Below, piece after piece: positions 30,551-63,882 of a stretch of DNA of 64,000 nucleotides. Origin of the DNA: Pseudopyrenochaeta lycopersici (Eukaryota > Ascomycota > Dothideomycetes > Pleosporales > Pseudopyrenochaetaceae). The position numbers and the translations under genes are program-made. The DNA lies in assembly GCA_003313425.1 (NCBI GenBank), contig NHZP01000083.1, positions 83,558 through 147,557 of the forward strand. Direction: 5' to 3'. Each line of letters starts with the position of its first letter. Position 1 is the stretch's first letter. A model generated the notes under the pieces. That model did no database searches and was not told the origin of the DNA. It was given only the letters and a program-made list of their open reading frames with translations.

Positions 30551-30557
30551 TTCCTTT

Positions 30558-30780
30558 CACTAGAAAGTTGTCAAGTGGTCAGGAGCCTTGCGCTCGGGAC
30601 CACGACGGCTTTACTCTAAGCTCTGGCCGTGACTGGAGGGAACAGCGAAGCGTTAAACCACCTGGGGTTTAGGGCAAGAGACCCCGGTAAGCAAAGCATG
30701 ACATGGATATGTGAGTCAGATGACCATGGGTTGCCACTCTTTTTATCAATCAATCATTTGATTGGTCTATGAATATGGAC
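30558..30780 (+). ncRNA. Structured cassette RNA, copy 1
   Basis: First copy; its TATA and left inverted-repeat arm are replaced by telomere repeats. Stems: AACCACC/GGGGTT; GC-GAA-GC; CTCTGGCC/GGCAAGAG; GCAA..CATG/CATG..TTGC; AATCAA/TTGATT. Confidence 0.75.
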
Positions 30781-30919
30781 GTAGGGACTAGGCAGTCCGC
30801 TGCTCTCTAGGGACTAGCGTGTCTTGGCAAAGAACAGGATGGATATGCCTATATATAATAACAGAGAATCTGTTGCTACGGAGTGTGTTTTTATAGAACA
30901 CTTCTTTTACGATACTGTG

Positions 30920-31714
30920 ATGGAGTCACACGCTGGAGGCAGTAACGCGGTTATGGACGTTGGTGTACTGGGTGTCCACGTACGAAGTTGGCTGGACAGC
31001 CTTGTTGAAGGGGCTACTGTTCGTGTATTGTCACCATCTGACAATCACATGGAGTGGGTGCGGAGGCACATTCACAGTAAGTGGATACTTCCTTTCTTCT
31101 AGTTAGGGGGAGGTCCCCCAACTGACAGAGTAGTAGCGTTGGCGGAGTGCGGCGCGTCGGTCACGTGTGATGTGAAGTTCAATGGGGTTGTATCTTGGTG
31201 GATCACCAAGGAGAGCGGATGCCTTCCTACCCAGTGTGTGGAGGAACAGCACACGGGGTGTTTAAACGCTTATAAGGAACTGTGTGCACGTAGTGTTCCT
31301 AGGCAGGCACTTCTCATCTGGAAGGTGAGTTTGTTGAGGGACTTTACTGTACGTAGTATGGTTGTCTTTGCAGAGCTGTCAGTAGAGACATTGGATGTGT
31401 TGGCGCGCAGTTTGCTGTGCCATCTTCATACACGGCGTGGAGACCTCGTGCAGGCGGAGGAGGTCGATACGCTCTTTGACGCACTTGATCAAGGGCGATT
31501 TTCCAGTAGCGTTGGATGCGGGTGCACCTGGACTATGGAGTGTGATGACTGTGGACTGCTGTATGAAGGGCAGCCACGTTTTACTCGTTGTGATACGTTT
31601 AGTGGGATACGTTTAGGCGGAGAGAATAGGTGGTTTACTGGGCTCAGTGACGGAGCCGGTGTTGTAAAGCCTTCTAATCTCCCTTGGCTTAGTTGCGGAC
31701 GCTCTAGGTTGTAG
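30920..31714 (+). CDS. Cassette 1 array protein (WWxTKESG family), spliced
   Basis: Function unknown; 18 of 21 cassettes carry this family. Exons 30920-31076 and 31137-31714, 244 residues. The intron has GTAAGT, a CTGAC branch site and a TAG acceptor, and splits a codon after its first base, as in all members. Exon 1 ends in VRRHIH. Exon 2 has SWWITKESG, then C-x5-QHxxC, FAELSVETLDV, C-x-C-x5-C-x2-C in VGCGC...CDDC (probable metal site), RFTR, and C-terminal WFTGLSDGAG. No signal peptide or membrane segment, so probably intracellular. The ATG lies past the second TATA; longer upstream reading needs a non-ATG start inside the promoter. Apparently identical to the genes at 35674, 37256 and 57768. 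Confidence 0.72.
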
Positions 31715-32139
31715 TCTGTACTCTTGTTATGCAAGAGAGTACAGTTATGACGTTAAGTGTAGTTCTTTTGGTAAGGTTGCTGTTGTAGAGTTATTCTAAA
31801 CAGTGGGTTACGAATTAAAAGTAAGTACTTGTATGCATTATGTTTTTAGTTTTCTTTTCTTTCAAACTGAAAAAAATAGGAGTTGGGTAGAGCAATGTAT
31901 ACTGAGTATATTTTATAGGAGTAGAATAATAGAGGGTTTGTGACGCCGAGCTTAGTCATCGAGGGTGGGAGCCCTTCAGATGGAACATCGAATCTGCAGA
32001 AAAATTGGCTAAGTCCAATTTCCCTGTGGCTGACAGTCACGCAGGGTCACGTTAGCTGTGGCGCGGGGAGCGCAGACATGGGTCATGTTGGGGCACGGGC
32101 CCCCTCCGACAACTTTCGAGTGCTATATATGATTCCTTT

Positions 32140-32365
32140 CACTAGAAAGTTGTCAAGTGGTCAGGAGCCTTGCGCTCCTTGACCCCTGACACTTTACATT
32201 GTATGCGTTGCCACGACTGGAGGGAGTACCGAAGGGTTAGGCTCTTTAGAGGCTAGAGGCAAAAGCCCCTGTAAGCAAAGCAGAGCACGGACGTCGCGGG
32301 TCAGATGATCACTGCTTGCCCACTTTTCTCTCAATCAGTACTGTGATTGGTCTATGAACGTAGAC
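32140..32365 (+). ncRNA. Structured cassette RNA, copy 2
   Basis: Stems AGGAGC/GCTCCT, CC-GAA-GG, GGCTCT/AGAGGCT, AATCAG/TGATT and GTCTATG/GTAGAC. First TATA about 32123-32130. Confidence 0.75.
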
Positions 32366-32509
32366 AGCATGGAAGGGGCACATTATTGCCTGCTAGGGAC
32401 TAGTGTCTCTTGGCAAAGACAGCATAGACATCGACATATAAAAGAGGGGAGCCCCCTCCCCGCGCACGGAGTGTTCTACTTTGTGTAGTTTCATCTTTTC
32501 TACACTGCG

Positions 32510-33294
32510 ATGGCATCGCACACTGGGCAAGAGGCTGAGGCGGGTTTCGCTGGCACCCCTATCCTCCCATCGACGATAGATGGGCTGCAAGAAGGATCTT
32601 CTTGCGCGGTGTCGGTAGAGACAGAGGCAGAGTTTAACGTAGTGAGGGGTCACGTGCCGGGTAGGTGATCTCTTTGTGTCGTTGGCGATGGCAGTAGGGG
32701 AGCCTATCTGACATGAGTGCAGTATTCATGAAACGCGGTATTTCTCTCACTCTCTCCTTGGATTTGTCGGGGAGACAATCTTGGTGGGTGACCAAAGAGA
32801 GTGGACGGCTTCCTCGCGAATGCGTTTCTCAGAAGCACACGGAGTGTTTACAGTACCACAAGGAACTGTGTGCAGAGGGGGTTACCCGGCAGTCGCTCCT
32901 GGTCCTCAAGGTGGAGGCGCTCCATCAGGATAGGGTGGTGCGGAGCCATGTTACTTTTGCGAAGCTCTCGGTAGAGGTACTGGAGGTGGTTGTGCAGCGC
33001 GTCCTACCTCTTCTCGTATTGCCCTCCGGCAAGACGGCGGATGTCTCTGTTGTTACTACAGTGTTTTACGGGTTAGACCTTGGGTGTTATGGAACTTCCG
33101 TGGACTGCGGGTGCAAGCTCGATAAGCGTTGCAAAGAGTGCGAGTCAGTGTCTTATGAAAAACGGCGGTTTAATCGTTCAGAAGGATTTTCTTCTGTAAG
33201 GCCGGTGTCAAAGCTTTATTGGTTTATTAGGATCAGTGATGCAGTAGGGATAATGCAGCCGGAAGGAGAGCAGTGGTTAACGTGCCGGCTATGA
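32510..33294 (+). CDS. Cassette 2 array protein, spliced
   Basis: Exons 32510-32660 and 32723-33294, 240 residues. Intron of 62 nt: GTAGGT, branch TCTGACAT, acceptor GCAG. Exon 1 is the SVETEAE type ending VRGHVP. Exon 2: SWWVTKESG near residue 70, QKHTEC, LLVLKVEAL, FAKLSVEVLEVV, VDCGC...CKEC near 178-190, and WFIRISDAVG near the C-terminus. A typical member with all hallmark residues; function unknown. Confidence 0.72.
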
Positions 33295-33544
33295 AGAATA
33301 GGCAGGTTGTTATAGGAGGACGTATTCAGTCAGTGTCATGTCTTAGTAAGGGACCGGTGGCGCCTTTAAAGCTATGGTTATGGGTGTAGATTTTTGAATA
33401 GCAAGTATGTGTTGTATATGTCTTTTATTTTATTTATTTTCCTTGAAAATTGAGTTACTATTTAGTCTAATATATACTAACGTTATAATGTAGGGGTTAT
33501 ACGGCAGTAGGAAGAGTAACAAAGAATTTGTATGGCGGAGCTTG

Positions 33545-33690
33545 GTTAGTAAGGGTGGGAGCCCTCAGGATGGAACATCGAGTCTTCAAAAAATTGGCTA
33601 AGTCCAATTTCCCTGTGGCTGACAGTCACGCAGGGTCACGTTAGCTGTGGCGGGTTCTGCGCACAGACGGGTTGTGATGGGCACGGGCCC
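33545..33690 (+). ncRNA. 3' hairpin block (cassette 2; homologous block ends every cassette)
   Basis: Before each inverted repeat lies 100-200 bp with conserved stem-loops: AAGGG...CCCTT; ATTGG-CTAAGT-CCAAT (33591-33610 here), which in other cassettes is AATG-CGTAAGT-CATT, so both sides change together; and CTGTGGCGC...GCGCACAG with variants GCGCA/TGCGC and GCGCG/CGCGC. A GGCACGGGCCC box often follows. This is either the 3' end of the gene transcript or a separate RNA; the pairing changes argue for selection on RNA structure. Confidence 0.6.
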
Positions 33691-33697
33691 ATTCTGT

Positions 33698-33739
33698 CAA
33701 CTTTCTTGTGTATATATGATTCCTTTCACTAGAAAGTTG
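33698..33739 (+). promoter_or_regulatory. Inverted repeat around TATA-like box (cassette 3; same in all cassettes)
   Basis: Left arm CAACTTTCTTGTG (33698-33710) and right arm CACTAGAAAGTTG (33727-33739) are inverted repeats with one mismatch; in other cassettes the arms match fully (CAACTTTCTAGTG) or extend to GACAACTTTC/GAAAGTTGTC. The loop always contains TATATATGATTCC (once TTATATGATTCC, cassette 9). Loop length falls in two classes, about 16 or 28 nt. It may be a core promoter for the RNA downstream, a cruciform or a recombination site. Confidence 0.75.
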
Positions 33740-33951
33740 TCAAGTGGTCAGGAGCCTTGCGCTTCTGATCCTGGACACTTTACATGTAAGCAGGGCCGGC
33801 GAGTGGAACGAGTAGCGAAGCGGTAGACTACTTGTAGGCTAGGGGCGCTGCACTTAGTAAGCAGAGCAGAGCACGGACAGTGCGGGTCGTCTGACCCTGT
33901 TGTGCCCACTCTTTTTCAGAACGTCAGTCTGATTGGTCTATGGCGGTAGAC
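33727..33951 (+). ncRNA. Structured cassette RNA, copy 3
   Basis: First stem AGGAGC/GCTTCT keeps pairing through G-U. Also GC-GAA-GC; GACTAC/GTAGGC (G-U); GCAGGGCC/GGGCGCTGC; GCAC/GTGC; GTCTA/TAGAC. Confidence 0.75.
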
Positions 33952-34018
33952 AGATGGAATGGGCATTACATTGCCTGCTAGGGACTAGTGTGTCTTGGCA
34001 GTGCCAGAGACGGAGGTG

Positions 34019-34025
34019 TATATAA
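34019..34025 (+). promoter_or_regulatory. Second TATA box, gene promoter (cassette 3; same layout in nearly all)
   Basis: TATATAA about 308 bp after the first TATA and 61 bp before the start ATG; cassette 21 has the same 308-bp spacing. It is followed in most cassettes by a short hairpin (such as AACAGCG...GCTGTT or GGGGA...TCCCC) and CACGGAGTG. Cassette 8 lacks it at the normal place. Confidence 0.65.
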
Positions 34026-34079
34026 CTAACTACAGCTCCTCTGCTGTTGGCATGGAGTGTTCTTTAAAACTTCATTGCG

Positions 34080-34867
34080 ATGGAATCGCGCACTGGGCAG
34101 TATACCGTAGCCTCTACTATGGATCATAGTCATGTAGTGTCACTGGACACGCTTGTGTCGGGTCAAAGGGGGGAGCCCTTCCCTGGGACAGTTGCAAACA
34201 TTGAATACCTGCGGAGTCGGGTGCCGGGTAGGTGTCTACTTGTTTCTTTTACTTCTAACTTCAGTGGGCCTCCCCCACTGACGGAGTAGCAGAGCTCGTG
34301 GAACAATGCGTCTCTCTAGCACTTCATGTGGATTTGTCGGGGAGACAGTCTTGGTGGATTACTAAGGAGAGTGGGCAACCTCCTAAGCAGTGTGTAGAGG
34401 AGCAACACCTGGAGTGTCTTTCCAAGTTCAATGAGCGCTTTAGTGCCCTGGGGGATACCCGGCAGTCGCTCCTGGTCCTTAAAGTGGAAACTGTATACTG
34501 GAACGAGATGGAACAAACTATTTTGTTTGCGCAACTCTCTATGGAGGCACTGGATGTGCTTTTGCAGCGCATAGTATCCCTTCTCATCCTGCCGTCGGGG
34601 CAGATTGTGGAACCTTCAGTTGTTAACCGAGTGGTCTCCCTGTTAGGGGACGGGTACTATAGTACGTGTGTAGACTGCGCATGTATGCCGCTCAGGGTAT
34701 GTGAGCCTTGTGCGTCGGTAAGTTATAATTCGCCAAGGTTTGTTCGAAAATGTAGATTTTCAGGTGTGTGGCCGTTTGGAGAGTCCATGTGGTTTGTTGG
34801 ACTCAGCGATGCGGTAGGAGAGGTACAACCATCAGGAAGGAACTGGCTTTCGTGTCCCTGTGCGTAG
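34080..34867 (+). CDS. Cassette 3 array protein, spliced
   Basis: Exons 34080-34227 and 34293-34867, 240 residues. Intron 65 nt with GTAGGT, CTGAC and CAG. Start context GCGATGGAATCGC is shared with most cassette genes. Exon 1 is the second type (SGQRGEPFPGTVANIEYLRS), shared nearly word for word with cassette 21. Exon 2 has SWWITKESG, VDCACM...CEPC and WFVGLSDAVG. Confidence 0.74.
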
Positions 34868-35311
34868 TACGTGTAATGATGATTTTGTAAGATACGGAGT
34901 ATAATAAGGTAGTAGCAATAGCAATGGTTAGGATGAAGTAGATGCTGACTTTGTGCTTTGCAGAATACTACGGTATTATGAACGTTTTTGATGTTATCTA
35001 TGACTATTATTTATGTTATGTTGTGAGTATGTATAGTGTTTTACTTTTTTTTTTTTTTTTTTCTATTAAAAAAATAGTACTGATATTGTAATGGCAGTGC
35101 CTTGTTAAGCACTAAGGAATTTGTGGTGCGCAGCTTCATTGTTAAGGGTGGGAGCCCTTCAGATGGAACATCGAACCTCTCGAAAAATGCGTAAGTCCAA
35201 TTTTACTGTGGCTGGAAGTCACGTTGGGTCACCTGGGGGTGTGGCGCAGATTGTGCGCACGGGGCAGAAATCAACTTTTCTAGTGTGGCGCAGCCTATAT
35301 ATGATTCCTTT

Positions 35312-35534
35312 CACTAGAAAGTTGTCAAGTGGTCAGGAGCCTTGCGCTCGGGACCACGACGGCTTTACTCTAAGCTCTGGCCGTGACTGGAGGGAACAGC
35401 GAAGCGTTAAACCACCTGGGGTTTAGGGCAAGAGACCCCGGTAAGCAAAGCATGACATGGATATGTGAGTCAGATGACCATGGGTTGCCACTCTTTTTAT
35501 CAATCAATCATTTGATTGGTCTATGAATATGGAC
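35312..35534 (+). ncRNA. Structured cassette RNA, copy 4
   Basis: Same sequence as copy 1, here with its TATA (about 35295-35302) and left repeat arm (CAACTTTTCTAGTG, one extra T). Confidence 0.75.
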
Positions 35535-35673
35535 GTAGGGACTAGGCAGTCCGCTGCTCTCTAGGGACTAGCGTGTCTTGGCAAAGAACAGGATGGATAT
35601 GCCTATATATAATAACAGAGAATCTGTTGCTACGGAGTGTGTTTTTATAGAACACTTCTTTTACGATACTGTG

Positions 35674-36468
35674 ATGGAGTCACACGCTGGAGGCAGTAAC
35701 GCGGTTATGGACGTTGGTGTACTGGGTGTCCACGTACGAAGTTGGCTGGACAGCCTTGTTGAAGGGGCTACTGTTCGTGTATTGTCACCATCTGACAATC
35801 ACATGGAGTGGGTGCGGAGGCACATTCACAGTAAGTGGATACTTCCTTTCTTCTAGTTAGGGGGAGGTCCCCCAACTGACAGAGTAGTAGCGTTGGCGGA
35901 GTGCGGCGCGTCGGTCACGTGTGATGTGAAGTTCAATGGGGTTGTATCTTGGTGGATCACCAAGGAGAGCGGATGCCTTCCTACCCAGTGTGTGGAGGAA
36001 CAGCACACGGGGTGTTTAAACGCTTATAAGGAACTGTGTGCACGTAGTGTTCCTAGGCAGGCACTTCTCATCTGGAAGGTGAGTTTGTTGAGGGACTTTA
36101 CTGTACGTAGTATGGTTGTCTTTGCAGAGCTGTCAGTAGAGACATTGGATGTGTTGGCGCGCAGTTTGCTGTGCCATCTTCATACACGGCGTGGAGACCT
36201 CGTGCAGGCGGAGGAGGTCGATACGCTCTTTGACGCACTTGATCAAGGGCGATTTTCCAGTAGCGTTGGATGCGGGTGCACCTGGACTATGGAGTGTGAT
36301 GACTGTGGACTGCTGTATGAAGGGCAGCCACGTTTTACTCGTTGTGATACGTTTAGTGGGATACGTTTAGGCGGAGAGAATAGGTGGTTTACTGGGCTCA
36401 GTGACGGAGCCGGTGTTGTAAAGCCTTCTAATCTCCCTTGGCTTAGTTGCGGACGCTCTAGGTTGTAG
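35674..36468 (+). CDS. Cassette 4 array protein (identical to cassette 1)
   Basis: Exons 35674-35830 and 35891-36468. Translation and flanks match cassette 1 at an offset of exactly 4754 bp, so this is a recent copy. It stands in direct tandem with another identical unit, cassette 5. Confidence 0.72.
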
Positions 36469-36893
36469 TCTGTACTCTTGTTATGCAAGAGAGTACAGTT
36501 ATGACGTTAAGTGTAGTTCTTTTGGTAAGGTTGCTGTTGTAGAGTTATTCTAAACAGTGGGTTACGAATTAAAAGTAAGTACTTGTATGCATTATGTTTT
36601 TAGTTTTCTTTTCTTTCAAACTGAAAAAAATAGGAGTTGGGTAGAGCAATGTATACTGAGTATATTTTATAGGAGTAGAATAATAGAGGGTTTGTGACGC
36701 CGAGCTTAGTCATCGAGGGTGGGAGCCCTTCAGATGGAACATCGAATCTGCAGAAAAATTGGCTAAGTCCAATTTCCCTGTGGCTGACAGTCACGCAGGG
36801 TCACGTTAGCTGTGGCGCGGGGAGCGCAGACATGGGTCATGTTGGGGCACGGGCCCCCTCCGACAACTTTCGAGTGCTATATATGATTCCTTT

Positions 36894-37116
36894 CACTAGA
36901 AAGTTGTCAAGTGGTCAGGAGCCTTGCGCTCGGGACCACGACGGCTTTACTCTAAGCTCTGGCCGTGACTGGAGGGAACAGCGAAGCGTTAAACCACCTG
37001 GGGTTTAGGGCAAGAGACCCCGGTAAGCAAAGCATGACATGGATATGTGAGTCAGATGACCATGGGTTGCCACTCTTTTTATCAATCAATCATTTGATTG
37101 GTCTATGAATATGGAC
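36894..37116 (+). ncRNA. Structured cassette RNA, copy 5
   Basis: Same sequence as copy 1 (offset 6336). The upstream inverted repeat is the short-loop class (CAACTTTCGAGTG). Confidence 0.75.
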
Positions 37117-37255
37117 GTAGGGACTAGGCAGTCCGCTGCTCTCTAGGGACTAGCGTGTCTTGGCAAAGAACAGGATGGATATGCCTATATATAATAACAG
37201 AGAATCTGTTGCTACGGAGTGTGTTTTTATAGAACACTTCTTTTACGATACTGTG

Positions 37256-38050
37256 ATGGAGTCACACGCTGGAGGCAGTAACGCGGTTATGGACGTTGGT
37301 GTACTGGGTGTCCACGTACGAAGTTGGCTGGACAGCCTTGTTGAAGGGGCTACTGTTCGTGTATTGTCACCATCTGACAATCACATGGAGTGGGTGCGGA
37401 GGCACATTCACAGTAAGTGGATACTTCCTTTCTTCTAGTTAGGGGGAGGTCCCCCAACTGACAGAGTAGTAGCGTTGGCGGAGTGCGGCGCGTCGGTCAC
37501 GTGTGATGTGAAGTTCAATGGGGTTGTATCTTGGTGGATCACCAAGGAGAGCGGATGCCTTCCTACCCAGTGTGTGGAGGAACAGCACACGGGGTGTTTA
37601 AACGCTTATAAGGAACTGTGTGCACGTAGTGTTCCTAGGCAGGCACTTCTCATCTGGAAGGTGAGTTTGTTGAGGGACTTTACTGTACGTAGTATGGTTG
37701 TCTTTGCAGAGCTGTCAGTAGAGACATTGGATGTGTTGGCGCGCAGTTTGCTGTGCCATCTTCATACACGGCGTGGAGACCTCGTGCAGGCGGAGGAGGT
37801 CGATACGCTCTTTGACGCACTTGATCAAGGGCGATTTTCCAGTAGCGTTGGATGCGGGTGCACCTGGACTATGGAGTGTGATGACTGTGGACTGCTGTAT
37901 GAAGGGCAGCCACGTTTTACTCGTTGTGATACGTTTAGTGGGATACGTTTAGGCGGAGAGAATAGGTGGTTTACTGGGCTCAGTGACGGAGCCGGTGTTG
38001 TAAAGCCTTCTAATCTCCCTTGGCTTAGTTGCGGACGCTCTAGGTTGTAG
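37256..38050 (+). CDS. Cassette 5 array protein (identical to cassette 1)
   Basis: Exons 37256-37412 and 37473-38050. Identical to cassette 1 by eye. The copies diverge only within the next cassette's RNA (after GCGCTCC near 38515), which places duplication endpoints in the shared RNA region. Confidence 0.72.
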
Positions 38051-38475
38051 TCTGTACTCTTGTTATGCAAGAGAGTACAGTTATGACGTTAAGTGTAGTT
38101 CTTTTGGTAAGGTTGCTGTTGTAGAGTTATTCTAAACAGTGGGTTACGAATTAAAAGTAAGTACTTGTATGCATTATGTTTTTAGTTTTCTTTTCTTTCA
38201 AACTGAAAAAAATAGGAGTTGGGTAGAGCAATGTATACTGAGTATATTTTATAGGAGTAGAATAATAGAGGGTTTGTGACGCCGAGCTTAGTCATCGAGG
38301 GTGGGAGCCCTTCAGATGGAACATCGAATCTGCAGAAAAATTGGCTAAGTCCAATTTCCCTGTGGCTGACAGTCACGCAGGGTCACGTTAGCTGTGGCGC
38401 GGGGAGCGCAGACATGGGTCATGTTGGGGCACGGGCCCCCTCCGACAACTTTCGAGTGCTATATATGATTCCTTT

Positions 38476-38720
38476 CACTAGAAAGTTGTCAAGTGGTCAG
38501 GAGCCTTGCGCTCCTTACCCCTGACACTTTACACCTAAGCAGGGCCTGTGACTGGAGGGAACAGCGAAGCGGTAGGCTTTTTAAAGCCTAGGGGCCATGC
38601 ACGCTTAAGTAACACGAAGCACGGACTGTGTGAGTCAGATGACGCTGGGTTACCCGTGGGTGGCACTCCTGCCCCCACTCCGTCCTCAATCAGTTGTCTG
38701 ATTGGTCTATAGCTATAGAC
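38476..38720 (+). ncRNA. Structured cassette RNA, copy 6 (with extra helix)
   Basis: Stems AGGAGC/GCTCCT, GC-GAA-GC, AGGCTTT/AAAGCCT. Contains an optional extra hairpin GTGGG...CCCAC (about 38657-38683), also found in copies 8, 15 and 20. Confidence 0.75.
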
Positions 38721-38870
38721 GCATGGAATGTGCATTTGGTTGCTCACTAGGGACTAGCATTTCTTGGCGAAGACAGCATGGACATGAATATATCACACGA
38801 ACAGAGAATCTGTGTTCACGGATGTGCTTCACTTCCTCAAGGGTTTGTTTTCTTCTTGTATTACCGCGCG

Positions 38871-39653
38871 ATGGAGTCGCAAGCCGGGCAGGGCACTGGC
38901 AATGCGGAGGCTGTTTCTGCTATAAGCTTCTTGTCTCTTCTAGAAGCGTTGGAGGAAGGAAGTTTTTTCCTATTGTCTGTAGAGACAGGTGCGGAGCGGC
39001 AATGCGTGAGAGGTCACGTGCATAGTCAGTGTCTTTTTTCCCACTCGTCTTCTAAAACTGACGGAGTAGCAGCGCTAGTGGAACGCGGGATGTCTCTCAC
39101 AATCTTCTTGGATTTGTCGGGGAGACAATCTTGGTGGGTAACTAAAGAAAGTGGACGACTCTCTCAACAGTGTGTGGAGCAACAGCATATATTTTGTCTA
39201 AAAGATTATAAGGAACTTAGTGCCGAAGGTGGGACCCGGCAGTCGCTCCTGGTCCTCAAGGTGGATGCACTCCACCCGGATGGGGTGGTCGAGAGCCAGG
39301 TTGCTTTTGCGCAGCTCTCGGTAGAGGCACTCGATGTGGTCGTGGAACGCATAGTACCCCTTCTCATCCTACCAGAAGGGCAGAGGGCGGATACTTTTAT
39401 GACGTCTTCTATATTGTTGTACTCGTTGGACAATGGGTGGTACAGTACGTGTGTCGATTGCGCATGTACGGCGCGTAGAAAGTGTGAGCCTTGTGCGTAT
39501 GTACAATTTTTTAAGGCTAGGTTTGTTCGAGTAGATGAATTTTCCGGGGTACGGCCATGTAGAGAGTCGTATTGGTTTACTGGGATCAGTGACGCTGTGG
39601 GAGCAGTACTACCATCGGGAAGGAACTGGTTGAGTTGCACTCGTTTTTGGTAA
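38871..39653 (+). CDS. Cassette 6 array protein, spliced
   Basis: Exons 38871-39024 and 39073-39653, 244 residues. The 48-nt intron starts GTCAGT (unusual third base) and is a multiple of three without a stop, so an unspliced product would also be open. Exon 2: SWWVTKESG, VDCACT...CEPC, WFTGISDAVG. An upstream in-frame ATG at 38778 lies near the second promoter and is less likely. Confidence 0.72.
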   Translation: MESQAGQGTGNAEAVSAISFLSLLEALEEGSFFLLSVETGAERQCVRGHVHSQCLFSHSSSKTDGVAALVERGMSLTIFLDLSGRQSWWVTKESGRLSQQCVEQQHIFCLKDYKELSAEGGTRQSLLVLKVDALHPDGVVESQVAFAQLSVEALDVVVERIVPLLILPEGQRADTFMTSSILLYSLDNGWYSTCVDCACTARRKCEPCAYVQFFKARFVRVDEFSGVRPCRESYWFTGISDAVGAVLPSGRNWLSCTRFW

Positions 39654-40043
39654 GAATATCGTGATGGTAAGAGTACGTAGTCCCTGTGTCCATGTAATGG
39701 TAATAATATATCTCAGTAGGATACAAAAAGTATCAAGTCCATATGGTATGTTATAGTAAAGTATATTATGGTAAGTGTATTTACTTTTTTACATATAGTT
39801 GCTAACATGGTAATGGTAGGGTGATGAGAACAAAAAAATGAACAATGGTAGTGCGGAGCTTCATTAGTAAGGGTGTGGGCGCCCTTGGGATGGAGCACCA
39901 TCTCCAAAGAAAAAAAAAATGCGTAAGTCCATTTTCCGTGTGGCTGGAGGGCACGCCGAGTCAGCAGGAGATGTGGCACATGGGGGGGCACGGGCCCCGA
40001 CTCAACTTTCTAGTGTGGCGTTTTGCCTATATATGATTCCTTT

Positions 40044-52926: not shown

Positions 52927-53051
52927 GCATGGAATGTGCATTAGGTTGCTCATTAGGGACTAGTGGTCTTGGCATGGTTCAAGAGCTGGATGTATAAGAG
53001 GGGGGGGGGGCCCTCTGCCTCATTTACGGAGTGTGTTCCAGCTCACTCTAA

Positions 53052-54479: not shown

Positions 54480-54636
54480 TACATGGAATGGGCTGCCCCT
54501 GCCAACTAGGGACTAGGCCATCTTGGCAGTGCGCAAGGCAGGCTGGACGTAACTGTATATAAGAGGGGAGGATATCCCCGCTCACGGAGTGTGAATGTTT
54601 ATTTTGTAAAAAATATCTTGTTTTTTCTGCGTTGCG

Positions 54637-55435: not shown

Positions 55436-55828
55436 TATGGAATGGCGTTGATATATTGTAGTCGAAGTGGTATACTATTGTCTATATCTTTATATAGGAA
55501 CAGTTGCAGGCTATAGATTTGGTAGAAAAACGTAGGAAGTACGTATTTAATTTAGTTGTGTTTTAAAATACGATTTGTGTATATTGTACTGTGTACTAAT
55601 TATGGCAAGTAGGTTTTGTATAGAAGTAGACGAAACATCGAAGCAGTTGTGGTGCGGAGCTTGGTCATTAAGGGTGTATGCGCTGGGATGGAAATTCGCA
55701 AAAATTGGCTAAGTCCAATTCCTGTGTGGCTGGAGGCGATCCCAGGTCACATGGAGATGTGGCTCGTGGTGGGCACGGGCCCATCCTCAACTTTCTAGTG
55801 TGGCGTTTTGCCTATATATGATTCCTTT

Positions 55829-56053
55829 CACTAGAAAGTTGTCAAGTGGTCACCAGCCTTGCGCTGGTTACCCTTGCCACTTTACAATTAAGCAGGGCAC
55901 GCCTAGGGACTAGGCAGCGGAGCGTTAAACTACGAGTAGTTTAGGGGCCATGCACTTAGTAAGCAACACGAAGCACGGACAGTGCGGGTCATCTGACCAT
56001 GGGTTGCCCACTCTACTTCAGAGCTTTAGTCTGATTGGTCTATGAATATGGAC
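55829..56053 (+). ncRNA. Structured cassette RNA, copy 17
   Basis: Stems ACCAGC/GCTGGT, GC-GGA-GC, AACTAC/GTAGTT, GCAC/GTGC, GGTC/GACC. Confidence 0.73.
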
Positions 56054-56222
56054 GCATGGAATTGGCATGGTTCTGCCTCTTAGGGACTAGGTGCTCTTGG
56101 CGGCGCACAAGGAAGGGACGTATATAACCACAACAGTTCCTCTGTTGTCACGGAGGTGGTGCACTCCCTCAACGGACAGTCAGATCGGGTAGTTTTCTGA
56201 CCCGCATGGTTTTGTGTAGGCT

Positions 56223-57018
56223 ATGGAGTTGCCACGCGTAGCAGAGCGCACAGAGAACGCGCTCCTCTTGACGGCTGATAGGCTTAGTAAGGGCATGTAT
56301 GGCCCTCCCTTTGTAGGGGACGCTGCAGCCATTGAGTGGCTAATGTGTAACGTTTGCTGTAAGTCACGTGTCCATTGGGTTGGTTGGGGGAACAACTAAC
56401 ATGGTTGTATACCTTGTGGAACAGCAAGTGTCGGTGACGTGTCATGTCAAGTCGCAGGGCGAGTACTGTTGGTGGCTCACCAAGGAGAGTGGGCAGCTCC
56501 CCCCAACGTGTGGTTCGAAGGTAGTGTGCGGATGCTCGGCTACCTTCTCTACCTCATGTTTTGGTTGTGTTTCCCCTAAAGCGCTACTCGTCTGGAAGGT
56601 CGATATTGCTGTTAGCGCTATGCAGATGCGGAGCGTTGTCGCGTTTGCGCAACTCTCCTTGATCACCTTGCGGATGTTTTGGCATCGCGTATTGCCCAGT
56701 GTTTGGGTATCGGAAGGGGCCTTGGCGGATGCCTTTACTATTGATGGATTATTCTCCGTGTTGGATTGCGGAGGCTTTTCTGGATCATTTTCGTGTGGGT
56801 GCACTTTGCAGGCGTCTTGTCAGCCCTGTTGCAGCTTGCCCATTACGCATCAGCGGTTTACACGTTGGGACAAGTTTAGCGGAGTGTGTCCTGATGGGCC
56901 CCATGGATGGTTTTCTGGGTGCAGTGATGCTGTCGGTATGGTGCATCCGTCGAGGCTTGACTGGTTAACCTGTTTAGATGTTTGGGCGTCGCCCTTAGGG
57001 TTGTGTACGCATTGTTGA
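56223..57018 (+). CDS. Cassette 17 array protein, splice acceptor unclear
   Basis: Exon 1 from ATG 56223 to a GTAAGT donor at 56359 (phase 1 as usual). The branch CTAAC is at 56396-56400, but where others have an AG acceptor this gene reads GTTGTATA, so no acceptor in the right phase is visible. Exon 2 coding is intact from 56401 to 57018 (LVEQQVSVTCHV, WWLTKESG, Cys-rich CGSKVVCGC, SCGCTLQASCQPC, WFSGCSDAVG). It may start at the ATG at 56401 without exon 1, use a non-AG acceptor, or be inactive. Confidence 0.55.
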
Positions 57019-57405
57019 TGCGGAGGCAAAGATCTTGTATGGCACAGTATATGTGTTGTCTCATATATATTTGTGAGTATTATTGGTAGATGGTTCTATT
57101 TACGATGGAATATGTGTGGGGGACCGTTTTTACCTTAGCAGCCTTTGGTTTTTTGTGCAGTGGTGGCTGCTTGTTCATTGTTTGCAGGATTTACTTGTAA
57201 GTATCTGCAGAGAGTATTTTTTCAAAAAAAAAATTGGCTAAGTACGACACAGTGTGGCGCAAAAAAAAAGTTGTCAATTGCCCTGTGCGCGATTTAGCGC
57301 GGTTCTGGAGGTACATGGTCCTCACCCAGTAGTGGGTGGGCGGGAGGTCACTCTCCAGCCACGTCAACTTTCTAGTGTGGCGTTCCGCCTATATATGATT
57401 CCTTT

Positions 57406-57628
57406 CACTAGAAAGTTGTCAAGTGGTCAGGAGCCTTGCGCTCGGGACCACGACGGCTTTACTCTAAGCTCTGGCCGTGACTGGAGGGAACAGCGAAGCG
57501 TTAAACCACCTGGGGTTTAGGGCAAGAGACCCCGGTAAGCAAAGCATGACATGGATATGTGAGTCAGATGACCATGGGTTGCCACTCTTTTTATCAATCA
57601 ATCATTTGATTGGTCTATGAATATGGAC
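57406..57628 (+). ncRNA. Structured cassette RNA, copy 18
   Basis: Same sequence as copy 1 (offset 26848), with its own TATA and long-loop inverted repeat. Confidence 0.75.
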
Positions 57629-57767
57629 GTAGGGACTAGGCAGTCCGCTGCTCTCTAGGGACTAGCGTGTCTTGGCAAAGAACAGGATGGATATGCCTAT
57701 ATATAATAACAGAGAATCTGTTGCTACGGAGTGTGTTTTTATAGAACACTTCTTTTACGATACTGTG

Positions 57768-58562
57768 ATGGAGTCACACGCTGGAGGCAGTAACGCGGTT
57801 ATGGACGTTGGTGTACTGGGTGTCCACGTACGAAGTTGGCTGGACAGCCTTGTTGAAGGGGCTACTGTTCGTGTATTGTCACCATCTGACAATCACATGG
57901 AGTGGGTGCGGAGGCACATTCACAGTAAGTGGATACTTCCTTTCTTCTAGTTAGGGGGAGGTCCCCCAACTGACAGAGTAGTAGCGTTGGCGGAGTGCGG
58001 CGCGTCGGTCACGTGTGATGTGAAGTTCAATGGGGTTGTATCTTGGTGGATCACCAAGGAGAGCGGATGCCTTCCTACCCAGTGTGTGGAGGAACAGCAC
58101 ACGGGGTGTTTAAACGCTTATAAGGAACTGTGTGCACGTAGTGTTCCTAGGCAGGCACTTCTCATCTGGAAGGTGAGTTTGTTGAGGGACTTTACTGTAC
58201 GTAGTATGGTTGTCTTTGCAGAGCTGTCAGTAGAGACATTGGATGTGTTGGCGCGCAGTTTGCTGTGCCATCTTCATACACGGCGTGGAGACCTCGTGCA
58301 GGCGGAGGAGGTCGATACGCTCTTTGACGCACTTGATCAAGGGCGATTTTCCAGTAGCGTTGGATGCGGGTGCACCTGGACTATGGAGTGTGATGACTGT
58401 GGACTGCTGTATGAAGGGCAGCCACGTTTTACTCGTTGTGATACGTTTAGTGGGATACGTTTAGGCGGAGAGAATAGGTGGTTTACTGGGCTCAGTGACG
58501 GAGCCGGTGTTGTAAAGCCTTCTAATCTCCCTTGGCTTAGTTGCGGACGCTCTAGGTTGTAG
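57768..58562 (+). CDS. Cassette 18 array protein (identical to cassette 1)
   Basis: Exons 57768-57924 and 57985-58562. Fourth copy of the cassette 1 gene, about 20 kb from the other three, with the same flanks. Shows copying over distance within the array. Confidence 0.72.
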
Positions 58563-58987
58563 TCTGTACTCTTGTTATGCAAGAGAGTACAGTTATGACG
58601 TTAAGTGTAGTTCTTTTGGTAAGGTTGCTGTTGTAGAGTTATTCTAAACAGTGGGTTACGAATTAAAAGTAAGTACTTGTATGCATTATGTTTTTAGTTT
58701 TCTTTTCTTTCAAACTGAAAAAAATAGGAGTTGGGTAGAGCAATGTATACTGAGTATATTTTATAGGAGTAGAATAATAGAGGGTTTGTGACGCCGAGCT
58801 TAGTCATCGAGGGTGGGAGCCCTTCAGATGGAACATCGAATCTGCAGAAAAATTGGCTAAGTCCAATTTCCCTGTGGCTGACAGTCACGCAGGGTCACGT
58901 TAGCTGTGGCGCGGGGAGCGCAGACATGGGTCATGTTGGGGCACGGGCCCCCTCCGACAACTTTCGAGTGCTATATATGATTCCTTT

Positions 58988-59212
58988 CACTAGAAAGTTG
59001 TCAAGTGGTCACCAGCCTTGCGCTGGTTACCCCTGACACTTTACACGTATGCGTTGCCAACGAGTGGAACGAGTACCGAAGGGTTAGTCTTGAATAAGAC
59101 TAGAGGCATAAGCCCCTGTAAGCAAAGCAGAGCACGGACGTCGCGGGTCAGATGACTCTTCTTTGCCACTCTTTTTATCAATCGGGTTTCTGATTGGTCT
59201 ATGAACGTAGAC
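58988..59212 (+). ncRNA. Structured cassette RNA, copy 19
   Basis: Stems ACCAGC/GCTGGT, CC-GAA-GG, AGTCTT/AAGACT, GCAAAG/CTTTGC, GTCTATG/GTAGAC. Confidence 0.75.
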
Positions 59213-59414
59213 GCAGGGACGGGGCACACTCGTGCTCCCTAGGGACTAGGTTTTCTTGGCGTAGCTTGAGGTAGATACCTATATAAGACTAACAGTGGAG
59301 CTGTTTTCACGAAGTGTTCTACTTTGTGTAGTTTCTTTTCTTCTACGCTGCGATTGTATCGCTTGCACTGATTAAGTGCGTACGGAGATTGTCCCATTTG
59401 ATTCTTGTTTAAGA

Positions 59415-60263
59415 ATGGATCACCGCATCAGCGATAGTAGAGCGGCAGGCGTCGCGGGCCAGGATGGCGGGTCTGGTACTGCTGTAGGGATAACCAGCAA
59501 TGGGAAGAGGGCGAAGCTTTGTCGGGACGATCCCACTGGAGGTGTTGTCTCTCTATTGCGGAGCAAGGAAGTCGTAGAGGATTTGTTATCACGTGTTCCG
59601 GAGCCATCGCTGATGTCTAGCCGACCTGGTGGGGGAGGCTCGGTGTCGTATCTTTCAGCAACGGATGCTATCCGCCTTGCTAACAGGGTGTTTGGTTTTG
59701 ACGGATGGGCAAACGAAATTCTCGAAGATGAACGGCTTGGAGAGGAACCGGGGCCGGTGTCTAAGACTAGGCAGTCTACTACGACTACGACTACGACGGT
59801 CTATTGGCGATCGAAGATAGCAGTCACACTGGCGGAGCACTTAGGAGGGGCGCGCCATGAGGATTGGGGCTATGGGAAGGCCACAGCTGCTAGTAAACTC
59901 GTAGCCATTGAGAACGCAGCGAAGGAGTCTGTGACGGATGGCATAAAGCGAGCGTTGATTTTTTTTGGCGAGGCTACAGGGAACTGTTTTAAGGATCATG
60001 CCTATCTCGCCTGGGCACAGCGTGTTATGCGGAGCGGCGAGTGTGCTAGGAAGAGATTTTCTATGGATGAAGTTGTGCGTTTGGATGACGCAGGCAGTGA
60101 TCGATGTCCCGCTGGTGGATCTACCAGTGCATTGGCTTCTCGGGTGGCTGTGCCTGTTACGAGGTCTCCTGTTAAGCAGGAAAAAGAGGTGGAACGGCTT
60201 GGTGGGGACGCTGATATATTTGATTCAGATGATTTTGATTATGATATGGGGGAGTTCAATTAG
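59415..60263 (+). CDS. Cassette 19 Rad52-family single-strand annealing protein
   Basis: 282 residues from the ATG at 59415; no intron evident. Rad52/Rad22 proteins form rings that anneal complementary single strands and help load recombinase. The conserved N-terminal domain spans about 52-198: SRPGGGGSVSYL, ANRVFGFDGWA, HEDWGYG (148-154), VTDGIKRALIFFG (173-185) and TGNC. A poly-Thr insertion (122-128) lies in the strand before YWRSKIAV. The tail is short and acidic (DSDDFDYDMG) and appears to lack the long C-terminal part that binds RPA and Rad51 in nuclear Rad52. At the usual gene start the DNA reads GCGATTGTATCGC in place of GCGATGGAGTCGC. It occupies the gene slot of a normal 1575-bp cassette. 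Confidence 0.88.
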   Translation: MDHRISDSRAAGVAGQDGGSGTAVGITSNGKRAKLCRDDPTGGVVSLLRSKEVVEDLLSRVPEPSLMSSRPGGGGSVSYLSATDAIRLANRVFGFDGWANEILEDERLGEEPGPVSKTRQSTTTTTTTVYWRSKIAVTLAEHLGGARHEDWGYGKATAASKLVAIENAAKESVTDGIKRALIFFGEATGNCFKDHAYLAWAQRVMRSGECARKRFSMDEVVRLDDAGSDRCPAGGSTSALASRVAVPVTRSPVKQEKEVERLGGDADIFDSDDFDYDMGEFN

Positions 60264-60562
60264 GTACAATGTAACCATTTTTTGTATTACGTTTACATTG
60301 CGTACAGGTTTGGTGGAACTGTTCATTTGGTAACGAACGTTATTCCATTGTAGTTGTTTATTGCGTGGTGCTTCGTCATGAAGGGTGTGGGCGCCCTTGG
60401 GATGGAACATCAAATCTTCAAAAAAAAATGCGTAAGTCCATTTTCCCTGTGGCTGACAGTCACGTTGGCTGTGGCTCGGGAGAGCGCACATGGGTTGCTG
60501 TGGCGCAGATTGTGCGCGCACAGGCCACAACTCAACTTTCTTGTGCTATATATGATTCCTTT

Positions 60563-60806
60563 CACTAGAAAGTTGTCAAGTGGTCGAGAGCCTTGCGCTC
60601 GGGACCACGACGGCTTTACTCTAAGCTTTGCCTACGACTGGAGGGAGTAACGAAGTGTTAAACTAGAATTAGTTTAGAGGCAAAGACCCCTGTAAGCCCA
60701 CAGGAGCACGGACTGTGCAGATCAGATGATCACAGTGGGCACGTGGGAGACACTCTTGGCCCCACAACGCGTTCAATCAGTTGTCTGATTGGTTTATGGA
60801 TATAAC
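60563..60806 (+). ncRNA. Structured cassette RNA, copy 20 (with extra helix)
   Basis: Stems AC-GAA-GT, AACTAG/TTAGTT, GCCCAC/GTGGGC, GATC/GATC, optional GTGGG...CCCAC hairpin (about 60741-60766), AATCAG/CTGATT, GTTTAT/ATATAAC. Confidence 0.75.
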
Positions 60807-60963
60807 TACATGGAAGGGGCAGACGCTTGCCTCGTAGGGACTAGGTTCTCTTGGTAGAGACAGCATGGATATCAACATATAAGAGGGGGGAGCCCCTTCC
60901 CCGTTCACGGAGGTGTTGCACTTCCTCAGTTCCTTGAGGCTTCTTTTGTTCTAGTATACTGCG

Positions 60964-61755
60964 ATGGTGTCGCGGCCTGGACAGGGCACTATGGCGGGTC
61001 CTAGTGCTACAAATAGTTTCCCATCTGTAATAGATAGGGTACAGGAAGGATCTTCTTCTGCTGTGTCTGTAGAGACACCCGTGGAACATGAAGCGGTGAG
61101 GAATCACGTGCCTGGTGAGTGTCTTTCTTGTTGTCTAGAGACAGATTGAGTTGGGGAGTGCCTAACTAACGGAGTAACAGTTTTAGTGGAGCGTGGTATG
61201 TCTCTTACCGTACATATAGATTTGTCAGGTAAAAAATCTTGTTGGATTACCAGGGAGAGCGGACGCCTTCCTATAGAGTGTGTAGCACAAGGACACAAGT
61301 TTTGTCTGGAAGACTATAAGTATTTTGTTGCGCAGGGGGCCACCCGGCAGTCTCTCTTAGTTCTCAAGGTGGACGTGCTCTGGTATGTGGCAATGCGGAG
61401 CTTAGTTGTTTTGGCGGAGCTTTCGGTAGAGACAGTAGATGTGTTGATGCAGCGCATTCTTCCTCTTATCACAACACCTGAAGGGCAGACTGCGGATGCT
61501 TTTATGACGTCTGTATTGTTGTATTCGTTAGACGAAGGGTTTTTTAATACGCGGGTGGACTGCGCATGTACTCTCAACTGGATATGTGAGCCTTGTGTGT
61601 ATGCACGTGGTGTTTCATCAAGGTTTACTCGCTTAGATGAATTTTCGGGTGTATGGCCGTTTGGAACGTCTGACTGGTTTGCTGGACTCAGCGATGCAGT
61701 AGGAATAGTACAACCGTCAGGAGAGGACTGGCTGACTTGCCGTCGTTGTTGGTAA
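60964..61755 (+). CDS. Cassette 20 array protein, spliced
   Basis: Exons 60964-61114 and 61181-61755, 241 residues. Donor GTGAGT, branch CTAAC, acceptor ACAG, intron 66 nt. Exon 1 has the SVETPVEHEAVRNHV form. Exon 2: CWITRESG, VDCACT...CEPC, WFAGLSDAVGIVQPSG. Complete by all family hallmarks. Confidence 0.74.
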
Positions 61756-62131
61756 AACGGTTAGCAGTAAGTTCCTCTATATTTTACATATGGGTATGGC
61801 GTGTAGCACTAGTTGTTTACTGTGTTGTAAAGTACGTTGATTTATTAATCCTTATTTTTATCACACGTAGTTACTGAGACGTTAATTATAGTATTATCAT
61901 TATTGTAACAAGGAAGTTGTTGTGCGGAGCTATGTTATTTAGGGACCTTACCCTTTAGACGGAATGTCAATCCTCTCAAAAAAAAATGCCTAAGTCCATT
62001 TTCCTTGTGGCTGGAGGGCACGCCGAGTCAGGTTGGCTGTGGCTCGGGAGAGTCACGTTGGGATGCTGTGGCGCTATTTTTGCGCGCACGGGCCCCTCCG
62101 ACAACTTTCGAGTGCTATATATGATTCCTTT

Positions 62132-62356
62132 CACTAGAAAGTTGAGCAAGTGGTCGGCAGCCTTGCGCTGCCAGCCCTTGCAACTTTATCTTAAGCTCTG
62201 CCCGCGAGTGGAACGAGTAGCGAAGCGGTAAACTAGAATTAGTTTAGAGGCAAGAGCCCTGGTAAGCAACACGCAGCACGGACCGTGTGAGTCAGATGAC
62301 CGCAGGGTTGCCCACTCTTTTTCCAATCAGTACTGTGATTGGTCTATGGAGATAAT
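62132..62356 (+). ncRNA. Structured cassette RNA, copy 21
   Basis: Distinct allele: outer stem AAAGTTG/CAACTTT and inner GGCAGC/GCTGCC, versus AAAGT..GTC/GACACTTT and AGGAGC/GCTCCT in most others. Also GC-GAA-GC, AACTAG/TTAGTT, AATCAG/TGATT. Confidence 0.77.
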
Positions 62357-62500
62357 ATCATGGAATGTGCACTTAGTTGCTCTCTAGGGACTAGTGTGTC
62401 TTGGCAGCGCTCAAGACAGGGACATATATAACAACAGTGTCTCTGTTGGCACGGAGGTGTTGCACTCCCCTAAGGGACTTTGTGCTCTTTTTGCACTACG

Positions 62501-63285
62501 ATGGAATCGCTACAGGTAGTAGATAGTGTAGGGACTACGGATAATAGTCATTTGCCGTCAGTCGACCAGCTTCGGCCGGGTCAGAGGGGGGAGCCCTTTC
62601 CTGGGACAGTTGCAAACATTGAATACCTGCGGAGTCGCGTGCCTGGTAGGTATCTACTTTGGTTTCTCACGTTGGGCCCTTCCCAACTAACCTCATCACA
62701 GAGTTAGTGGAGGACTCTGTGTCCCTTACCTTCTGTATGGAATTGTCGGGAGAACAATCTTGGTGGCTAACCAAGGAGAGCGGACGCCTTCCTACCGAGT
62801 GTGTGGAGGAACAGCACACGGGGTGTTTAAACGCTCGTAAGGAATTCTGTGCCTTGGGGGGTACCCTAAAGGCATTTCTTGTCGTGAAGGTGGAGACGGT
62901 GTATCAGAACGAGAGGGATACAATCGTTGCATTTGCGGAGCTCTCCCTAGAGGCGCTGGATGTGGTTGTGCAGCGCATAGTACCCCTTCTCATCCTGCCA
63001 GATGGGCGGATGGTAGAGGCTTATGTTGTGGAGGCATTGTTTGATATACTGTCCCGAGGTGGTTTTTCTACGCGGGTGGACTGCGCATGCACGCTGCACA
63101 GGATGTGTTCGCCTTGCGCATCGTTAGAGTATGCGCTTGCTCGGTTCGTTTTTTGCGACCAATTTTTGAGTGTATGGCCGTTTTTCAAGCGAGACTGGTT
63201 CACTGGGGTCAGTGATGCGGTAGGCATGATACAACCGTCAGGAGAGGATTGGCTGTCTTGCCTCACCGAGTATTCCTCAGAATGA
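62501..63285 (+). CDS. Cassette 21 array protein, spliced, last complete gene before telomere
   Basis: Exons 62501-62645 and 62702-63285, 242 residues. GTAGGT donor, CTAAC branch, ACAG acceptor, intron 56 nt. Exon 1 is a patchwork: SVDQLRPGQRG as in cassette 10, then EPFPGTVANIEYLRS as in cassette 3. Exon 2 resembles cassette 1 around KESGRLPTECVEEQHTGC and cassette 3/10 around VDCACT...CSPC. WFTGVSDAVG present. Its stop lies about 600 bp from the telomere repeats. Confidence 0.74.
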
Positions 63286-63705
63286 TATCTTTTTGCCTTC
63301 TCTATGGTAAAAGTTTTCTATGGTAATGTCAATCGTATAGATTTTGGATAAAGCGTATGCTTATGTTGTTATTCTTAGGGCATTATAGAGTAGTGTAGCT
63401 TTTTTTCATACAGTGTAGTCTATTTGTATATCGTAGTAGGTACATATTTTTATATTTAGTTTATTTATCTTCTTTTAATAGAAGAGAAAGCTAATGTAGG
63501 AGTAGCAGGCATAGCAGGCTGGTTAGAAGAACGAAGGGTGTGAACCCTTAAGATGGAACGTCGAACCTTCGAAAAAAAAATGCGTAAGTCCATTTTCCCT
63601 GTGGCTGGAGGGCCATGCAGAGTCACATGGAGATGTGGCACATGGGGGGGCACGGGCCTCCCTGACAACTTTTCTAGTGTGGCGCAGCCTATATATGATT
63701 CCTTT

Positions 63706-63882
63706 CACTAGAAAGTTGAGCAAGTGGTCGGCAGCCTTGCGCTGCCAGCCCTTGCAACTTTACAATTAAGCAGGGCCGACGAGTGGAACGAGTAGCGAAG
63801 CGTTAAACTAGAATTAGTTTAGGGGCGCTGCACTTAGTAAGCAACGCAACGCACGGACGTAGCGTGAGATCATCTGATCTGT
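63706..63882 (+). ncRNA. Structured cassette RNA, copy 22, truncated by telomere
   Basis: GGCAGC/GCTGCC allele as in copy 21. The sequence stops after the GATC/GATC stem, where GTGGG runs into TTAGGG. The remaining helices and the gene are lost. Confidence 0.75.

Follow-up and report, generated by a model that had tools for sequence, protein, structure and literature searches.

The closest published parallel that we found to the element described here is BcssDV1, a fungal single-stranded DNA (ssDNA) virus with one gene per segment and segments of 1669 to 1707 nt. As described in the main text of its report, a geminivirus-type Rep, a capsid protein, and unknown proteins are carried on separate segments, which share a common region of about 260 nt (another is 38 nt long), and a nick motif ending in TT^ lies in a stem-loop (PMC10731770). 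This overall layout resembled that predicted for a repetitive array that we analyzed in the fungus Pseudopyrenochaeta lycopersici. The sequence examined was positions 83558 to 147557 of contig NHZP01000083.1 (C83) in a genome assembly of 62.7 Mb and 188 contigs; this whole 64,000-nt stretch is called the window, and positions are window coordinates unless prefixed by a contig (C..) or piece (L...) name. The array consisted of units of about 1.6 kb, and each unit began with a block of about 300 letters in which both sides of many stems had changed together. We are nearly certain that this compensated fold is real, and a virus-like context for the units is likely.

The array also differed from BcssDV1, which has four segments as opposed to 67 coding clusters (see below), carries Rep in the negative sense, and has the nonanucleotide TACTCTT^CA, itself a departure from the TAATATTAT type of Genomoviridae; its main text mentions no integration (PMC10731770), and we know of no covarying fold reported for it. 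Fusarium graminearum gemytripvirus 1 (FgGMTV1), a tripartite circular ssDNA mycovirus whose common regions are noted in the same report (PMC10731770), has three segments only. Nanoviruses have 6 to 8 individually encapsidated ssDNA circles (PMC9858847), but their hosts are plants and their segments are far fewer. Endogenous circular ssDNA virus genes are already described in eukaryotic genomes (PMC3198968), and the genome of human herpesvirus 6 is also integrated in telomeres (PMC5537652, PMC3874159). Human herpesvirus 6, however, is a large double-stranded DNA virus, whereas the junctions described here were at an origin-like nick motif. We know of no fold like the present one in nanoviruses, and of no description of telomeric arrays of hundreds of whole ssDNA units among endogenous ssDNA viruses. 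A literature search, from which subscription papers and preprints were mostly absent, found nothing like the telomeric system among the matches listed.

Folded ssDNA has roles in several other systems. Parvoviruses depend on terminal hairpins of folded single-stranded DNA both to replicate and to package their genomes, but these hairpins are the ends of a linear genome and involve a different origin chemistry. The single-strand origins (sso) of rolling-circle plasmids and the attC sites of integrons act as folded ssDNA in which structure is kept more than sequence; these are bacterial, however, and are used by different enzymes.

The structured block and its covariation

The window contained 22 exact unit starts (CCTTTCACTAGAAAGTTG) between 30553 and 63701, spaced 1568 to 1592 bp apart. 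A first-pass annotation of this sequence had claimed a structured block in all 22 cassettes, and we found one at every unit start. The blocks of units c1, c4, c5, and c18 had identical letters, so the window held 19 distinct blocks, namely, 18 complete ones and the truncated block of c22. The array and its flanks were as follows:

30553..63882, + strand: unit array of 21 full units and 1 truncated unit, with TTAGGG repeats on either side
30530..30552, + strand: internal telomere repeats, with GGGTT directly before the CC of the first unit (left junction TTAGGGTT|CC)
63701..63882, + strand: truncated last block (c22), which runs straight into the terminal TTAGGG repeats
63883..64000, + strand: terminal telomere repeats (TTAGGG)n, up to the end of contig C83 (147557)

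Across the whole genome, there were 893 exact copies of the unit start TTCCTTTCACTAGAAAGTTG (366 on the + strand and 527 on the minus strand), while a reversed control of this sequence had 0 copies. The genome pieces that we retrieved yielded 132 full units after a filter of 1400 to 1750 bp, and 78 of these were distinct, with a mean length of 1577.5 bp (s.d., 11.8; range, 1536 to 1609). When the coding parts (bases 421 to 1300) of the 78 distinct units were grouped by shared 12-mers, they fell into 67 clusters at both thresholds used, a count that treats diverged paralogs as separate clusters. The first-pass annotation had missed both this diversity of encoded genes and the genome-wide telomeric setting.

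The modules of the block are given below for unit c2, which serves as the example; their order from the unit start was D1 (with hp1), P2 (with hpA, hpG, and hpB), P5 (with H6 and H7), H8, and H9.

32135..32430, + strand: structured block of c2, from the nick site to before the second TATA, with an equivalent block at each unit start
32155..32194, + strand: D1 with inner hairpin hp1 (GGAGC/GCTCC), helices 1 to 3
32205..32264, + strand: P2 multibranch domain with hpA, hpG (32229-32235), and hpB, helices 4 to 7, register here uncertain by a base
32275..32319, + strand: P5 domain enclosing H6 and H7, helices 8 to 11
32332..32364, + strand: hairpins H8 (CAATCAG/GTGATTG) and H9 (TCTAT/GTAGA), helices 12 and 13
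32435..32444, + strand: second TATA-like box of c2, upstream of the gene of the unit

To examine covariation, we used 174 blocks from the retrieved genome pieces, 83 of which were distinct. Before counting, we excluded two false matches that lay mid-unit, 5 blocks that lacked the 3' landmark, blocks that continued into telomere repeats, and all duplicates. Of the 73 references, 9 were also left out, and the alignment comprised the other 64. The six strongest covarying column pairs (G statistic with average product correction) were all base-pairing columns, and such columns made up 18 of the top 140 pairs and 108 of the 4609 with G>5. Columns 87 and 93, for example, held GC in 28 rows, CG in 25, AT in 6, and TA in 4.

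A structure of 65 pairs in 13 helices had a covariation score of 0.296 on the 64 blocks, compared to 0.158 for shuffled alignments and 0.058 to 0.085 when partners were slid, a control that favored the structure because the structure had been written from the same alignment. Paired cells amounted to 85.9% (77.4% shuffled and 34 to 41% slid), and changes on both sides were seen at 34 of the 65 pairs (25.4 shuffled) and in 394 cells (142.8 shuffled). One of the five measures, further pair types, showed no excess (89 compared to 88.5 shuffled; 258/500). Unguided RNAalifold returned 39 pairs, 16 of them with double changes. In addition, the two arms of hp1, hpA, hpG, and hpB shared alleles, with adjusted mutual information of 0.67, 0.69, 0.77, and 0.87, respectively, while values between different modules were mostly -0.08 to 0.31, with a maximum of 0.42 (H6 with the 5' arm of H7). 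The blocks were mosaics in which a small repertoire of module alleles recurred. These results supported the earlier claim of paired changes in many stems and of selection on the fold.

Some parts of the structure were less clear. Helices 8 and 9 (P5 and its extension) aligned poorly, with 75% and 55% paired, and in P2, where 78% were paired, there were mismatches inside the helix and some alleles could be placed in more than one register. The P2 arms had mutual information of 0.27 across hpB and of 0.07 to 0.12 with hpB, but the values for the P2 5' arm with hpA and hpG (0.24 to 0.31) were as high as that from arm to arm. The arm-to-arm value of H7 was only 0.21, and the P2 and H7 arms were no more associated than some neighbors. 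RNAalifold also paired a GTC before D1 (alignment columns 18-21) with a GAC in the H6 loop (161-163), a possible pseudoknot-like contact.

Loop letters were largely fixed, and stem letters were free to vary. D1, with the stem AAGTGGT/ACC...ACTT, enclosed hp1, in which the quoted stems AGGAGC/GCTCCT, ACCAGC/GCTGGT, and GGCAGC/GCTGCC were all recovered; the quoted GC-GAA-GC, CC-GAA-GG, and AC-GAA-GT elements and the AACTAC/GTAGTT-type hairpin were likewise present, as were others. All 64 rows had a GGA triloop at hpA; the closing pair was T.G in 37, T-A in 21, G-C in 4, and C-G in 2. Below this loop there was usually a tandem G.A/A.G, with Watson-Crick pairs in 8 to 10 rows, which is why hpA was only 71% paired. 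A 2-bp stem with a GNA triloop was found at hpG in 62 of 64 rows; among these 62, the outer pair was G.G twice and G.T three times. The form of hpG was N-C(GNA)G-N' or a variant of it, as CCGAAGG (17 rows), GCGAAGC (16), ACGAAGT (13), GCGGAGC (6), and ACGGAGT (4), and more rarely as GCGGAGG (2), GCGGACGC (2), GCGGAGT (2), GCGAAGT (1), and GTGGAAC (1). The 7-mer d(GCGAAGC), known as an isolated stable motif, made up hpG in 16 of the 64 rows, and most other rows had a GNA variant of it; here the motif was part of a large evolving fold.

Of 21 full units, 19 had a second TATA-like box 289 to 318 bp (median, 297) past the unit start; the pattern found none in the other 2. Because this box lies past the block, the block would be absent from any gene transcript that begins at the box.

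Origin-like stem-loop, telomere junctions, and carried genes

Unit junctions had the form CAACTTTCTAGTG...TATATATGATT|CC...CACTAGAAAGTTG, which resembles a stem-loop replication origin. At the c1/c2 junction, where the nick is predicted between 32134 and 32135, the feature was the following:

32110..32152, + strand: origin-like stem-loop with left arm CAACTTTCGAGTG (32110-32122), loop CTATATATGATT|CCTTT, and right arm CACTAGAAAGTTG (32140-32152)

On the virion-sense strand, the predicted nick was directly followed, on its 3' side, by the block. Left arms of the CAACTTTC-TAGTG type were found by patterns in 72 of the 78 distinct units (CAACTTTCTAGTG in 35, CAACTTTCGAGTG in 15, CAACTTTTCTAGTG in 12, and CAACTTTCTTGTG in 10), and the unit end was TATATATGATT in 76 of the 78. 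An origin-like stem-loop of the type found in circular Rep-encoding ssDNA (CRESS-DNA) viruses, with a predicted nick motif in its loop, was recognizable by these patterns in 72 of 78 distinct units. The predicted nick motif TATATATGATT|CC differed, however, from the CRESS motif TAATATTAC, and with these unit ends, the nonanucleotide was not of the TAATATTAT type either. The "first TATA" that had been placed before the block was indeed there, but it lay in the loop of this stem-loop at the unit junction. Just upstream of the left arm (e.g., 32091-32104), a second hairpin with swapped stem letters was seen by eye, and its versions in different units included GGGGCACGGGCCCC, TGGGCACGGGCCCA, and GGCTGAAAAATTTTTCAGCC.

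All 33 left junctions with telomere repeats (free spacing of 0 to 6 bases) read TT|CC, 32 as GGGTT and 1 as GGGGTT. Right junctions that kept TATATATG read GATT|AGG in 19 of 20 separate cases, the remaining one (C131) being shorter; this count omits arrays cut mid-unit, as in the window. On C23, a telomere tract lay between two units exactly at the GATT|CC point. In the arrays examined, the + strand was the one that reads TTAGGG in the direction of the contig end. Wherever the junctions were readable, insertion was thus exact, on the telomere side at TT|AGGG and on the unit side at GATT|CC.

A Rep gene was found in the unit at L034:8356. Its pieces matched REP_ORF2-G2P (E-values down to 4.8e-5), Gemini_AL1 (0.0057 to 0.0083), and Gemini_AL1_M (4.6e-4), and the N-terminal piece had 9 identical copies in the genome as well as further interrupted ones. 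A second, helicase-less Rep (L044:543-1220), which we liken to the mastrevirus RepA, was present in 3 copies and had 46% identity to Rep in a genome search. The motifs VTW, HYH, and YCxK, which we take to be HUH Rep motifs I to III, were conserved between the two proteins (44% identity over that part). A profile made from the two sequences had 8 matches in the PDB, and the top 6 places were taken by Rep or replication-associated proteins, with 1l2m (E 0.0059) and 7vg8 (E 0.0097) as the best. In the putative superfamily 3 helicase part, a Walker A (GPSRLGKTEWA), a Walker B (LVLNDIDF), and a motif C (PVIVTCNADN) were recognized by eye, and this part had no PDB helicase match. Because of the Rep and the origin, membership in the CRESS-DNA viruses is likely. 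A capsid candidate (unit L026) had a basic N terminus, and its C-terminal piece was present in 8 identical copies. Its last 271 codons gave an all-beta model that was unreliable (predicted local distance difference test score [pLDDT], 34), and it had no Pfam, NCBIfam, or PDB sequence match except for one Pfam line at E 0.5.

Two further genes were located in the window:

32510..33294, + strand: gene of unit c2, with exon 1 from the ATG at 32510 and a GTAGGT intron donor, both predicted from the sequence, followed by a family A exon 2
59415..60263, + strand: RAD52-family gene of unit c19 (58983-60557), Pfam E 7.2e-28

The family A exon 2 of c2 contained WWVTKESG and conserved Cys residues. A frame with the family A motif was found in 42 of the 78 distinct units, and 33 of 40 such frames were aligned, with 25 to 64% identity to the first. 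Family A (e.g., 34081-34867) was a large and diverse protein family with Cys/Trp motifs and a well-predicted fold without a match. By eye, a hairpin such as CAGTGGG/CCCACTG preceded the 3' splice site of the family A intron. The c19 RAD52 gene had 13 genomic copies with identical protein and 45 to 48% identity to separate chromosomal RAD52 pieces (C12); it could be a captured single-strand annealing protein that drives mosaic recombination.

Other features of the window lay before the array. Directly before it, about 3.6 kb (26880-30530) had hardly any C on the + strand (only 7 in 27500-30530) and were rich in purines, with degenerate TTAGGG-like repeats. An intact frame of 1587 codons with OrsD, DEAD, and Helicase_C domains (20732-25495) resembled a telomere-linked helicase. 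A Ty1/copia-type retrotransposon polyprotein frame, with RVT_2 among its domains, was found at 4661-8110.

The folding molecule and the role of the block

The first-pass annotation had left the folding molecule as RNA or ssDNA. The ssDNA option fit better, and the reading as an RNA gene was less favored, because of the origin-like loop that holds the first TATA, the Rep units, the second TATA, the GNA triloops, and the DNA energy parameters. At 30 variable pairs, G.T combinations numbered 175 and A.C combinations 38, compared to 270 and 147 with shuffled partners. This excess of G.T over A.C beyond that of the shuffles suggested that the + (virion-sense) strand is the one that folds. The mean folding z of this strand (24 units, 40 shuffles each) was -2.61 with DNA rules and -1.67 with RNA rules, while mid-open reading frame sequence gave -0.38 to 0.00. 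DNA rules recovered the covarying pairs with a sensitivity of 0.56 and a positive predictive value of 0.38 (0.46 and 0.29, respectively, for RNA rules). DNA mini-hairpins with GNA loops are described as resistant to nucleases and extraordinarily stable, with a melting temperature of 78°C for GCGAAGC (PMC4686876). The mini-hairpins and the energy rules favored ssDNA over RNA without proving it. Overall, we consider it rather likely that the block folds as DNA, and it is probably not an RNA gene.

We propose, with about as much expectation of being right as of being wrong, that the block is a folded ssDNA element on the virion-sense strand, beside a likely rolling-circle origin of a many-segment geminivirus- or genomovirus-like element, and that it acts as a segment-packaging tag. 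Rep would nick at GATT|CC, and as the virion strand is displaced, the block would become single-stranded before the rest of it. A compact scaffold would then form from the C(GNA)G and GGA mini-hairpins, and the capsid protein would most likely be the one to read it, by shape and loop letters and not by the letters of the stems. The presence of the block on the examined units whatever their gene, its position upstream of the gene's own TATA and directly 3' of the predicted nick, its free stem letters, and its largely fixed loops fit such shape recognition on the displaced strand. One segment would be packaged per particle, which would lead to a fixed unit length, and the narrow unit length over 67 coding clusters suggests a packaging limit. 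Segments may also come to be stored at chromosome ends, if Rep links the 5'-CC end to the telomeric G strand at its 3'-TT end and the ...GATT-3' end is extended by telomerase; joining at TT and extension of ...GATT would together explain both junction types. For the element as a whole, we give an even chance to a massively multipartite ssDNA virus with dozens of segment types, about 900 units placed in telomeres via Rep at TT|AGGG, its own RAD52, and a shape-conserved ssDNA mark.

Several observations weigh against this proposal. The packaging role is what we infer from the arrangement, and we know of no such element in a CRESS virus, which leaves the function without a direct precedent. The matches of Rep were all below the gathering threshold, and the Rep pieces had no relative among the viral contigs searched. 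The putative capsid identity rests on the basic N terminus and the unreliable all-beta model, and some of the counted units lack a long reading frame and may be degenerate. The Rep unit (L034:8356-8578) and the capsid-candidate unit (L026:7705-7928) carried other sequence in place of P5 to H9, with the common 3' block end TAAGCGCTAGCCTTTTTGTCACGTGGAGGCGGG; D1 and P2 are therefore the common core of the 64 aligned rows. As to the molecule, 317 of 4108 cells held G.T pairs, a frequency that would suit RNA no less than DNA, and the minus strand also beat its shuffles (z of -2.20 with DNA rules and -1.87 with RNA rules). Both energy models predicted the structure only partly, with pairing probabilities of 0.13 to 0.14 for hpA and 0.02 to 0.04 for hpG, and RNA rules were better for hp1 and, at 37°C, for H7. 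The comparison of the two models covered the covarying pairs only and had no yardstick of known folds.

The alternatives concern different questions, so our estimates for them are not shares of a single total. The nearest rival to an encapsidation tag is a complementary-strand origin, that is, folded virion-strand DNA that recruits the host primase or polymerase for the complementary strand as a plasmid sso does. In rolling-circle plasmids, the sso is likewise a long folded region close to the nick, and a fold of the + strand DNA beside the origin, on the examined units regardless of gene, is equally what such a function would call for; the evidence presented here fits it and packaging alike. 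Many rolling-circle plasmids, however, have their sso placed for late exposure, whereas the block would be displaced first, and we regard this alternative as somewhat unlikely. The block might instead specify a non-coding RNA made from TATATATG, such as a small RNA made by RNA polymerase III (Pol III) to counter RNA silencing by the host, or an RNA with a structural role. The distance of about 30 nt from TATATATG to the first helix of D1, the sequence TTGTCAAGTGG, which we take to resemble the Pol III A box consensus, the TTTT past P5 in 33 of 64 blocks, and the frequent G.T pairs speak for an RNA. The other 31 blocks, including all 18 with an extra hairpin, had no TTTT there, so a T-run terminator was not a general property of the blocks, and TATATATG lies inside the origin-like inverted repeat. 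Moreover, the GNA loops and, overall, the energy rules favored DNA, and, in agreement with the earlier statement that no known RNA family has this layout, Rfam 15 gave 0 matches at the gathering cutoff over the 64-kb window and only 4 subthreshold matches (E 0.034 to 3.5) for one block. We therefore think such an RNA unlikely.

Recombination among a few founder units might also have produced the paired changes as a by-product, without selection on folding. The blocks are mosaic, and the weak association of the P2 and H7 arms is what such a process would leave, but the arms of hp1, hpA, hpG, and hpB shared alleles while most other module pairs were near 0. Linkage, furthermore, cannot make arms complementary, and the slid controls collapsed, which makes this explanation extremely improbable. 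A final alternative concerns the element and overlaps the other readings: the arrays may be a Helitron-like or other rolling-circle transposon family that is confined to telomeres and has no virion stage. Telomere-specific insertion, a Rep-type endonuclease, and hundreds of copies in the assembly are in keeping with a transposon. Helitrons, however, encode a Rep/Helicase and have TC...CTRR ends inserted between A and T, whereas the Rep found here was small and geminivirus-like and the units had CC...GATT ends at TT|AGGG. The narrow unit length over the coding clusters and the capsid candidate suggest particles, and we doubt that a transposon is the answer.

If the proposed packaging tag on a multipartite ssDNA virus is correct, the block would provide an unusually rich covariation record for a natural folded ssDNA element beside a replication origin, and a large natural structure of DNA, not RNA, would be documented by compensatory evolution. 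The known range of multipartite fungal ssDNA genomes, with four segments in BcssDV1, would be extended to dozens of segments, and an element-borne RAD52 would be tied to segment recombination. It would also become testable how multipartite ssDNA viruses recognize their segments, whether CRESS viruses have packaging signals, and by what means telomeres can serve a virus for storage.

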